Source: a virus. Taken from it: DNA of 35,998 nt. Location of the stretch: the IMG/VR virus record IMGVR_UViG_3300032085_000175, positions 1 through 35,998 of that record; one strand, given 5' to 3'. A program made the translations under genes and the position numbers. Shown here one piece after another: positions 1,375 through 16,610 of the stretch (within the stretch, counting starts at the first letter, position 1; the number at the start of each line of letters is the position of its first letter). Below the pieces are notes generated by a model. That model did no database searches and was not told where the DNA came from. It was given only the letters and a program-made list of their open reading frames with translations.

Positions 1375-1929
1375 TCATCCCACCATAAACAGTTCGTCAT
1401 CTTCTGATGGGGCTGAGTTAGTCTCATAAGCTACATGCTCAGTAATTCCCACATTCATTAGACGAACCCCTGCTCCACTAGCATAAGTCTCGAACTGCAC
1501 TTTAGCTTTAGTGCCGTTCCCGATAGCGCCATCTTCTGAAAAGCTCCACAGACGCTTGTTCTCTTTCCCTTGGGTGAGGTCTACTACTGTAGGTGCGCCA
1601 CCATAGTCTACGTCTACAGGCTCTCCTGTCTTCTTATCGGAGAAGGTCTTAACGTCAGATACCATACGCTTAACCTTCATGTATTTACCGATACCAAATT
1701 CAGCATTCCCCTGTAGGACACGCTGTGAGTTCATAGGCGTCAGGTCTAACCCATCAGCTACTAGCTTTTCAATTTGGTCTTCGTCAGTAAAGTAAGCATT
1801 AACGATATACTGCCCACCTTTTTGATGGATTGCTTGTGCTGCTCGTGATCCATCTGGTGATCCCATGTCTGCGTTTTCGGGGAAGATCTTAGCATACTCT
1901 AAAACCATATCCATTGTGTATTTAGCCAT
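1375..1929 (-). CDS. T7 gp2.5-like single-stranded DNA-binding protein
   Basis: 184 aa. Expected to coat ssDNA and contact the polymerase and primase-helicase. The OB-fold part is recognised from the run GNGTKAKVQFETY near residues 138-150 and the later HVAYE. The C-terminal tail is acidic and ends with an aromatic residue near the terminus (SEDDELFMVG), as in T7 gp2.5, where the tail binds partner proteins. It is the first gene after the promoter at 1962-1991, so the SSB cluster can be transcribed independently of the polymerase gene upstream. A good ribosome binding site (GAAAGGAAC) precedes the ATG. Confidence 0.88.
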   Translation of the reverse strand: MAKYTMDMVLEYAKIFPENADMGSPDGSRAAQAIHQKGGQYIVNAYFTDEDQIEKLVADGLDLTPMNSQRVLQGNAEFGIGKYMKVKRMVSDVKTFSDKKTGEPVDVDYGGAPTVVDLTQGKENKRLWSFSEDGAIGNGTKAKVQFETYASGAGVRLMNVGITEHVAYETNSAPSEDDELFMVG

Positions 1930-1961: not shown

Positions 1962-1991
1962 TTAATAGGGATACAAATCACAAAAAGTCAA
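1962..1991 (-). promoter_or_regulatory. Promoter for the SSB/exonuclease cluster
   Basis: On the minus strand: -35 TTGACT (1991-1986), an 18-bp spacer ending TTTGTATCCC, then -10 TATTAA (1967-1962). The spacer end and -10 are nearly identical to the promoters at 5880-5909 and 13371-13400. It lies in the 85-bp gap between the DNA polymerase and SSB genes. Confidence 0.75.
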
Positions 1992-5804: not shown

Positions 5805-5849
5805 TTACCTCTTACTTAAGTTTTATTACTAACTAATAATAATAAACTA

Positions 5850-5879: not shown

Positions 5880-5909
5880 CTAATAGGGATACAAATCAAA
5901 AAAAGTCAA
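5880..5909 (-). promoter_or_regulatory. Promoter for the primase-helicase/polymerase cluster
   Basis: Minus strand: TTGACT (5909-5904), 18-bp spacer ending GATTTGTATCCC, then -10 TATTAG (5885-5880). It lies just after the stop of the sigma-like gene, in a 107-bp gap, and matches the promoter at 1962-1991 at nearly every position from the spacer end through the -10. Confidence 0.78.
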
Positions 5910-5911
5910 CT

Positions 5912-6481
5912 TCACAAATTGTTACAGACCTTTTCAAAGGCTTTAGAAATCCTCTTATCTATAGCTTGTTTAGTTACTCCAAGTTTGTAAGCTACTTCAT
6001 CTAGTGTCATCTCATCCCAGTATCGGAGCTTAATTATTTCTAACTCCTCTTTATTTAACTGTTCTTCAACTACATAAATTACATAATTCTCGTAATCTGC
6101 CTTCTCGTATTCTTCTGCGTGGTCAGGTATAGATGATGAAAACTCTTCGTAGGATACAGCCTCAGACGACAGAATATTCCTTAGCCAATTAGCACCACCT
6201 TCTGACATATTACCTATATCTTCGTCGTTAATATCATGTGACAAACGCCTAGCTACGTTATGTTTAGGTATACTAACAGGTTGTAGGCTTAAGTTAATGT
6301 AGTCATGCATGGCTCTATTAGCCTCACGATACAGTTTCGCTGGGTGTACCTCTGGATCTTCAGCCCTTAACTCTAGGCAGACTATAGCTCCCTCAGATAC
6401 TATGTCATCAAAGTCATTAGGCCTGTTATATTTGTGTGCTAACTTACGACACATATTTATAAGATCTTCATTACTTATCAT
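5912..6481 (-). CDS. Sigma-70-family RNA polymerase sigma factor (phage-encoded)
   Basis: 189 aa. The N-terminal half resembles sigma region 2: YNRPNDFDDIVSEGAIVCLE corresponds to the core-binding part, followed by YREANRAMHDYI and a PVSIPKH segment. The C-terminal segment from about 140 is region 4: LNKEELEIIKLRYWDEMTLD, then the helix-turn-helix VAYKLGVTKQAIDKRISKAF. Such factors redirect host RNA polymerase to phage promoters. No phage RNA polymerase gene is present, so this is the best candidate for middle/late control. It overlaps the upstream 69-aa gene by ATGA, and a promoter of the shared type lies right behind its stop. Confidence 0.85.
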   Translation of the reverse strand: MISNEDLINMCRKLAHKYNRPNDFDDIVSEGAIVCLELRAEDPEVHPAKLYREANRAMHDYINLSLQPVSIPKHNVARRLSHDINDEDIGNMSEGGANWLRNILSSEAVSYEEFSSSIPDHAEEYEKADYENYVIYVVEEQLNKEELEIIKLRYWDEMTLDEVAYKLGVTKQAIDKRISKAFEKVCNNL

Positions 6482-8134: not shown

Positions 8135-8286
8135 TAGAATGTTACCTCTCCATTTTCATCACGAGGGTCATTATACCAACCCTTAGATAAGTGTAAAGTC
8201 CTTAAGTCTTCCTCTACATCTACTTCATCCTCAGTAGGTATCATAATACCTAACATGCGTAATTCCCTCTCTAGGTCTTGGTTCAT
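8134..8286 (-). CDS. Small acidic hypothetical protein, 50 aa
   Basis: MNQDLERELRMLGIMIPTED, then an acidic helix and SKGWYNDPRDENGEVTF. Coupled on both sides (TAATG downstream, ATGA upstream). No family recognised. Confidence 0.7.
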   Translation of the reverse strand: MNQDLERELRMLGIMIPTEDEVDVEEDLRTLHLSKGWYNDPRDENGEVTF

Positions 8287-13094: not shown

Positions 13095-13163
13095 GTCAAC
13101 CCCAGATCACAAATTGTTTCAGTCTTGTAACATTCAATCACATTTTTACACTGGGGGGTTGAC
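13095..13163. repeat. Interrupted inverted repeat overlapping a -35 box
   Basis: GTCAACCCCAG (13095-13105) and CTGGGGGGTTGAC (13151-13163) pair over 11 bp apart from two extra G. The right arm includes the TTGAC of the promoter at 13159. Another GTCAACCCCAG is at 10825-10835. Confidence 0.5.
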
Positions 13164-13187
13164 ATTCGTTGGGACCCTCTGTATTAT
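13159..13187 (+). promoter_or_regulatory. Strong sigma-70-type promoter toward the packaging operon
   Basis: TTGACA (13159-13164), 17-bp spacer, TATTAT (13182-13187). A GATTC site lies near the expected start point. It lacks the TGTATCCC element of the other phage promoters, so it may be the early, host-sigma-read one. Confidence 0.7.
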
Positions 13188-13370
13188 ACGCAGGTGATTC
13201 GGTTGGGGGCTGTTTCCACCCACATCTATAACATAAGAATTTTACTTCGACCCTGTATCTACTGTGGTATTTATGCAACAGTATACGACATGCGCTACCC
13301 ACTTAAGTCAACTACAAGAAAAAAGAATCATTGGTAATCAACGACTTATAAAATAATTAAAATAGTTAGG

Positions 13371-13400
13371 TTGACAAACTCATAAATGTATCCCTATAGT
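13371..13400 (+). promoter_or_regulatory. Phage-type promoter for the packaging/structural operon
   Basis: TTGACA (13371-13376), 18-bp spacer ending AATGTATCCC, -10 TATAGT (13395-13400). It shares TGTATCCCTAT with the two minus-strand promoters at 1962-1991 and 5880-5909. Confidence 0.78.
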
Positions 13401-13415
13401 ATAGTAGGAGCTATA

Positions 13416-13500
13416 CTTAAGTATATACTTAAGATCTCAACTTATCATATTATAATACTAGATAGATTAAGAAACTTAAGTTTATACTTAAGTATAGGTA
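13416..13500. promoter_or_regulatory. AT-rich palindromes downstream of the late promoter
   Basis: A perfect 18-bp palindrome CTTAAGTATATACTTAAG at 13416-13433 and a near-perfect one CTTAAGTTTATACTTAAG at 13475-13492. The first contains AAGTATATACTT, starting 18 nt after the -10, exactly as in the primase promoter. They are operator candidates or transcript hairpins. Confidence 0.55.
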
Positions 13501-15261: not shown

Positions 15262-16610
15262 TGGTTAAGAAGCTCTCAGAAACAGAGGCCAAGAAGGTAT
15301 TAGGTGTAGCTGGTGATAACACCTACAATGGTCAGATACGGGCTGATGAGTTTCTACCTGAGTTGCGTGGCAAGAAAGCCATACGCAAGTACCGTGAGAT
15401 GAGAGATAACGACAGTACTATTGGTGCTGTCATGTATGCTACAGAACAAGTCCTTCGTGACGTAGATTTAAAGGTGATGCCAGCCAATGATAGTACAGAA
15501 GCTAAAGAAGAAGCTGAGTTCGTTAAGTCTGTACTTGATGATATGGACCATACCCTTGATGACCATATTGCTGAGTCCTTATCGAATTTGTCGTATGGCT
15601 TTGCTTGGTTTGAGGTCATCTATAAAAGACGTAATGGCCCTACTGAAAGAAGTGATAAGAAGCGTTCTAAGTACTCTGATGGCCGTATGGGTGTACGCAA
15701 GATTGCTATTCGTGCGCCTTGGACAATCTCTAGGTTTGATGTAGATCAACAGACTGGTGATGTCAAAGGTATTTATCAGGACGGGTCGAGCTATAACAAC
15801 TCTAATTATATACCTACTCGCAAAAGTCTGTACTACCGCACGACAACGATTAATGGTGATCCTGCTGGTAGGTCTATTCTTCGTAATGCTTATACTTCTT
15901 ATGAGTATGTCAACAACCTACAGTCTATTGAGGCTATAGCAGTTGAGAGGGAACTTGCTGGTATCCCTGTTGCTCGTATTCCTGCTGAGTACTTGTCAGG
16001 GGATGCAACAGCCGCACAATCTGGATTTGTCAATAACCTGCAATCTATTCTCAGGGATGTCAAGTTCAATGAGCAGGGATACATTATTCTGCCTTCCGAC
16101 ACCTATCCCGATAAAGACGGAGCGCCTACCAACCAGAAACTGGTAGATGTTGAGCTTATGTCTTCTAGTGGTAGTCGTAATATAGAGATAGATACTATCG
16201 TAAGGCGTTACCAGCATGATATTGCTCGTAGTGTTCTTTCTGAGTTTCTTATGCTTGGTGGTGGCTCTACTGGCTCTTATGCCCTCTCCAAGAGTAAGAC
16301 AGACCTGTTCCTTCGTGCATTAGAGAGTTATATCCAAGCTATTGTTGATGTCCTTAACAAACAGCTTGTCGAGCGCCTCTGGGAGTTGAACGGTCTGAAC
16401 TATGACCTGATGCCAACTATTGTAGCTGGTGATGTAGCTCCACATGATCTACGTGAGATTGCAGCATTCCTACGGAACCTGAATGGCGCAGACATCAACG
16501 TAAGTGATCATCCAGAGGTTATACAGGATCTGATGGATATAGCTGAACTAAGATATGATGCAGATGCCAAGCCTGTAACACAAGAGGAGCCAGAAGATGC
16601 CCAGTCTTAA
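15261..16610 (+). CDS. Portal protein
   Basis: 449 aa, immediately after the terminase. Features of the DUF935-like/gp29-like portal group are seen: YGFAWFEVIYKRR (about 112-124), the IRAPWTISRFDVD segment, GRSILRNAYTSYEYVNNLQS with VERELAGIPVARIPAEYL, and the C-terminal clip-like region rich in charged helices. It forms the dodecameric ring at the capsid vertex. The start overlaps the terminase stop by one base, and the end overlaps the next gene by 14 nt. Confidence 0.88.
   Translation: MVKKLSETEAKKVLGVAGDNTYNGQIRADEFLPELRGKKAIRKYREMRDNDSTIGAVMYATEQVLRDVDLKVMPANDSTEAKEEAEFVKSVLDDMDHTLDDHIAESLSNLSYGFAWFEVIYKRRNGPTERSDKKRSKYSDGRMGVRKIAIRAPWTISRFDVDQQTGDVKGIYQDGSSYNNSNYIPTRKSLYYRTTTINGDPAGRSILRNAYTSYEYVNNLQSIEAIAVERELAGIPVARIPAEYLSGDATAAQSGFVNNLQSILRDVKFNEQGYIILPSDTYPDKDGAPTNQKLVDVELMSSSGSRNIEIDTIVRRYQHDIARSVLSEFLMLGGGSTGSYALSKSKTDLFLRALESYIQAIVDVLNKQLVERLWELNGLNYDLMPTIVAGDVAPHDLREIAAFLRNLNGADINVSDHPEVIQDLMDIAELRYDADAKPVTQEEPEDAQS

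Follow-up and report, generated by a model that had tools for sequence, protein, structure and literature searches.

The window, i.e. the whole stretch of DNA analysed here (a record of 35,998 bases from a marine bacterial virus), carries a sigma factor gene, a set of three promoters of shared sequence and host-type promoters, located as follows.

5912-6481, minus strand: gene of the phage sigma factor (189 aa), with a region 2-like N-terminus, a region 3.0 segment and a region 4 helix-turn-helix
6152-6268, minus strand: region 3.0 cassette (about aa 72-110), which relatives exchange as one block, with the HNVARR motif at 6245-6262
5912-6079, minus strand: region 4 cassette (about aa 135-189), ending beside the -35 of P_SIG
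5951-5974, minus strand: N-terminus of the recognition helix, TKQAIDKR (aa 170-177)
5880-5909, minus strand: promoter P_SIG (pattern match), with TTGACT at 5909-5904, TGTATCCC at 5893-5886 and TATTAG at 5885-5880
1962-1991, minus strand: promoter P_SSB (pattern match), with TTGACT at 1991-1986, TGTATCCC at 1975-1968 and TATTAA at 1967-1962
13371-13400, plus strand: promoter P_PKG (pattern match), with TTGACA, TGTATCCC at 13387-13394 and TATAGT at 13395-13400
8170-8197, minus strand: promoter E1, host sigma-70-like, TTTACA-16-TATAAT with TG, upstream of the thyX/sigma gene run
13159-13187, plus strand: promoter E2, host sigma-70-like, TTGACA-17-TATTAT

The first-pass annotation had named a sigma-70-like gene at 5912-6481, and Pfam, PHROG, hhalign and fold matches agree on this identification. 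The product matched sigma PHROGs and scored 40.4 bits against Sigma70_r4 (PF04545, cutoff 24.1), in line with a region 4 helix-turn-helix. No Pfam match to region 2 was obtained, and the assignment of region 2 and of the region 3-like segment, both in line with SigA as in the sigma-70 family, therefore rests on profile and fold. With hhalign, residues 13-185 of the 189-aa protein matched a SigA chain at 97.3%, and the leading PDB fold matches of the modelled structure were sigma factors (sigma-28, sigma-32, SigA), the model being of modest overall confidence (pLDDT 76, pTM 0.37). The recognition helix aligned without gaps to VTRERIRQIEAKALRKL of SigA, and [KR]Q[AS] of the TTG-reading sigma types stands at the position of RER in primary sigma. 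The invariant proline in region 3.0 suggests that HNVARR starts at the primary-sigma histidine position, when hhalign puts the motif about three residues further on; because the two placements disagree, the register of region 3.0 is uncertain by about three residues. Classification as an ECF sigma factor was rejected, with PF07638 at 15.4 bits (cutoff 21.1) and an extra segment between regions 2 and 4, the only regions of ECF factors.

Pattern search with TTGAC-N11-TGTATCCCTAT found the window to contain three exact matches, and allowing three mismatches added none, the mean of shuffled controls at up to three mismatches being 0.41. These matches reproduce, with exact coordinates and strands, the promoters of the form TTGACW-18 bp-TAT, with TGTATCCC directly before the -10, annotated earlier at 1962-1991 (-), 5880-5909 (-) and 13371-13400 (+). 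A fourth TGTATCCC at 16076-16083 is inside a coding region and without a -35. Spread of the pattern beyond the phage group was rejected: the other exact matches in IMG/VR look like chance, since they lie mostly in long ORFs of other contigs and without conserved downstream context.

P_SIG precedes the primase/helicase, endonuclease VII and DNA polymerase genes; P_PKG a gene for 133 aa, followed by the terminase large subunit, portal, protease, capsid and tail genes; and P_SSB a gene for 184 aa (1375-1929, minus strand), followed by an exonuclease and endonuclease I. Of the clusters earlier assigned to these promoters, primase and packaging were thus borne out, but the name "SSB" remains unverified, the 184-aa product having no Pfam, PHROG or PDB match. 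A promoter set shared by middle and late gene clusters is a mark of a phage late-sigma regulon of the phiEco32/7-11 type, although "middle/late" is here inferred from gene content only. As had been claimed, a phage RNA polymerase was not seen among the 30 ORFs scanned, the completeness of the record being unknown; in the complete CRP-6 genome (44.9 kb) none is annotated.

The window was compared with the isolate CRP-6 and about 55 relatives from IMG/VR, where two queries, one with a protein and one with an alignment, had yielded 59 loci carrying the sigma gene. Roseobacter phage CRP-6 is the nearest named relative of the window (72.9% DNA identity over ca. 3 kb of terminase/portal). Its gp14 (MK613348, 3586-4101), annotated as hypothetical, is a 31%-identical homologue of the window sigma, and the text of the CRP-6 paper makes no mention of a sigma factor or promoters (PMC6918029). 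Gene order is common to both phages, with the three promoters at the same places, which in CRP-6 are 4094 (+), 8033 (+) and 42210 (-), but the promoter code differs, all three in CRP-6 being TTGACT-N14-ACGTCATA. CRP-6 was the only wider relative found in phage records, and no prophage or host copies of the sigma were found among the 84,980 genomes searched. In one contig (L129), 531-1097 and the sequence downstream had a 55% primase match and a very long branch; this contig is perhaps frameshifted or chimeric.

The position of the sigma-adjacent promoter is kept across 55 contigs, but its sequence is not. Within clade 1, the first 70 residues of the sigma are nearly unchanged and two later segments change in blocks; the gene is a mosaic with two swappable cassettes. 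Nucleotide identity in the region 3.0 cassette was 40-57% between types and 89-100% within a type, with a well conserved upstream flank, and identity in the region 4 cassette was likewise low between -35 classes and high within a class. The region 4 recognition helix fell into nine classes, nearly all with a -35 hexamer of their own, and the region 3.0 segment into six classes paired with the bases before the -10.

Helix TKQAI: -35 TTGACT
Helix TRQA: -35 TTGCRT
Helix SRQS: -35 TTGCRA
Helix NKMWV: -35 GTTACA
Helix NQSTV: -35 GCATAA
Helix TQRQV: -35 GTCTAR
Helix AKSSV: -35 TGGACA (one contig)
Helix TPME: -35 GTTAAT or GTTATA
Region 3.0 HNVARR: TATCCC before the -10
Region 3.0 SWTARD: AGTCCC before the -10
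Region 3.0 SEPARS and HETSRS: TGTTGC before the -10
Region 3.0 SDLSRS: AGTTGC before the -10
Region 3.0 TTATRS: TGGTGC before the -10

At the sigma-adjacent promoter of the 55 contigs, each helix class had one -35 type (for TRQA with A or G at one position), and a single 6-mer before the -10 went with each region 3.0 class. The helix pattern [KR]Q[AS] was paired with TTG-type -35s in several backgrounds, an instance of a readable code from amino acid to -35. TTGACW with TGTATCCC is accordingly one of several interchangeable promoter types in the phage group, which the first-pass annotation missed. All eight combinations of two region 3.0 types with the four main region 4 types occur in clade 1.

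The window by itself would also allow the three promoters to be ordinary host sigma-70 promoters with a -35, the phage sigma acting elsewhere, as the hexamers are near consensus and TTGACA/TATAGT scores 11/12. At the same places, however, relatives have GTTACA, GCATAA and GTCTAA, and the variable elements track the DNA-contacting segments of the sigma itself. The conserved, consensus-like E1 and E2, candidate early host sigma-70 promoters of unknown activity, do not change with sigma class, their hexamer variation being restricted to the E2 -10 (TATTAT versus TAAAAT) and one degenerate E1 copy (L024). We regard ordinary host promoters as highly improbable.

The region 4 cassette ends two to three bases from the -35 of P_SIG, so that this promoter can travel with the cassette, and the match could in principle be produced by hitchhiking, shared ancestry or, the contigs being metagenomic, assembly artefact. 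For this reason covariation was tested only at the two distal promoters, which are kilobases from the sigma gene. These were located by DNA patterns with anchors on the downstream side of the -10, three in number plus a fourth for clade 2, any -35 being accepted. The relatives are mostly short contigs from metagenomes and offer few distal promoters for each class; after identical cases had been collapsed, 24 non-redundant units remained. The information shared was 2.77 bits between helix class and distal -35 and 1.96 bits between region 3.0 class and distal 6-mer (each 1/20,000 in permutations within clade and position), and each pairing also held inside each clade. Region 3.0 and the 6-mer agreed in all of 34 distal promoters. 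Both the motif classes and the windows for the -35 and the 6-mer were set after the data had been seen, and the permutation figures are therefore not those of a blind test.

Helix class was scrambled on the gene trees, with 13 changes on the primase tree of 25 rows, where shuffled labels gave a mean of 13.9, and 9 changes on the 17-row tree of the polymerase, where they gave 9.8; shared ancestry therefore does not explain the match. Chimeric assemblies would weaken the match rather than create it, and the complete isolate CRP-6 fits. Hitchhiking, ancestry and artefact thus seem hardly credible as its source.

Sigma-70 factors contact the -35 through region 4.2 and the bases upstream of the -10 through region 3.0. 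In the distal test the crossed pairings were not significant (2,897/20,000 and 3,100/20,000 permutations). This bears on a further possibility, that the variable elements are read by a different DNA-binding protein, of phage or host, to which the sigma is merely linked, for covariation by itself is no proof of contact. Each sigma segment nevertheless tracks the part contacted in known sigmas and not the other part, and primase and polymerase, taken as samples of the remaining genome, show no such tracking; a different reader is very unlikely. Taken with matching sequence in the relatives, there is strong evidence that the phage sigma would be the reader of the distant promoters.

Some cases depart from the pairing. 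Two clade-1 contigs have SSB promoters of another class, i.e. GTCTAA despite an NQSTV helix (22929_3214) and GTTACA despite a TQRQV helix (47359_228). Misassembly, a real intermediate and cross-recognition are all possible; for 47359_228 misassembly is plausible, because a second contig of the same sample (L087, 3300047359) has a GTCTAA promoter that would fit its sigma. Local best-match comparison could not settle whether the mismatched contigs are chimeras, relatives there being about 95-99% alike. In the TNDT class the sigma-adjacent promoter is GGCGGT and the SSB promoters are GTTTTT, and P_SIG of this class does not fit. Some packaging promoters in sigma-less contigs have GTTTTA, similar to the GTTTTT of the TNDT class.

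Fragments from the same sample, compared by eye from tables, offer supporting evidence only. In several samples the contigs with distal promoters alone match the type of the sigma contig: 3300040985 has a SWTARD/TKQAI sigma and a packaging promoter TTGACT-AAAGTCCC, 3300046466 an NKMWV sigma and GTTACA, and 3300025674 a TQRQV sigma and GTCTAA. Distal-only contigs of a type differing from that of the sigma contig were seen in 3300002930 and 3300025652.

The regulon proposed earlier, three promoters served by host polymerase with the phage sigma, is supported: across relatives the three promoters change along with those segments of the sigma that touch DNA, and neither the crossed controls nor the host-type promoters show such a match. 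In the absence of wet-lab data, and with core binding and contacts inferred, we consider it very probable that the sigma with host core drives the three promoters and that its cassettes are exchanged with compensating promoter change. Host sigma-70 would start the programme at E1, perhaps also at E2, the former serving the gene run with the sigma (timing inferred). The phage sigma would then join the host core RNA polymerase and direct it to P_SIG and P_SSB, for the replication genes, and to P_PKG, for the packaging/structural operon. Direct contacts are again inferred: the region 4 helix would read the -35 hexamer, and the region 3.0 segment the bases just upstream of the -10. In the CRP-6-like group, the two DNA-reading cassettes would recombine separately, tied neither to one another nor to the remaining genome; with the distant promoters carrying the matching elements, each phage would thereby have its own promoter code.

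The sigmas phiEco32 gp36 and Salmonella phage 7-11 gp47 read a middle/late promoter set with host core, promoter positions being kept between the two phages but not sequences; the proteins share ca. 15% identity and were, in the authors' view, acquired independently (PMC8948821). The window group is alike in that promoters of related phages stay in place but differ in sequence. It differs in that nearly identical sigmas swap only their DNA-reading cassettes and the two elements change independently. Rhodius et al. (2013) found that a chimeric ECF sigma with recombined -10- and -35-reading domains reads the recombined promoter and not those of its parents (PMC3817407). Those chimeras were made in the laboratory from sigmas without region 3, whereas the exchange in the phage group is apparently natural and concerns regions 3.0 and 4. 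Phage sigma regulons are thus known already, and so is the engineered exchange of sigma domains together with the promoter elements that they read. In HsdS of type I restriction systems, two DNA-reading cassettes swap independently by recombination and yield new specificities; there the sites need not change, but in the phage group several promoters must change with the protein. The open-access literature searched gave no example of natural, repeated exchange of two sigma/promoter elements inside a single phage group, which does not exclude that one exists.

A sigma that changes its specificity needs a matching change in all of its promoters, so that the step should be close to lethal, yet this phage population appears to have taken it repeatedly, and separately for each of two promoter elements; how promoter specificity evolves thereby becomes directly testable. 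One conjecture, possible but rather doubtful at present, is that the promoter code is a balanced polymorphism: recombination would keep making new sigma/promoter types, and a rare type would escape reading of its middle and late genes, or exploitation of its sigma, by co-infecting relatives, satellites or host anti-sigma factors. If so, promoter types would act like transcriptional incompatibility groups. The compact natural sigma-promoter pairs may also serve synthetic biology.

Some minor observations concern the surroundings of the promoters. The 184-aa gene is another swapped locus: clade-1 relatives (L017, L024) have one of two alleles, of 98% or 38% identity. The first gene under P_SIG is also exchanged, since many relatives (L004-L011, L013-L021 and others) carry a different gene start directly after this promoter, where the window has the primase. 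E2 and the bases following it, ACGCAGGTGATTCGGT (13151-13205, plus strand), hardly vary within clade 1 and can still be recognised in CRP-6. This element may be an early promoter, a leader or a packaging/origin element; it had no Rfam match, and no RNA family was found in the packaging leader. The window has five copies of the palindrome ACTTAAGT (5814-5821, 13301-13308, 13415-13422, 13474-13481 and 13486-13493), against a shuffled mean of 1.16, and no shuffle reached five. All copies lie around P_SIG and P_PKG, mostly in the leaders of both, and both copies in CRP-6 are just downstream of the counterparts of these two promoters.
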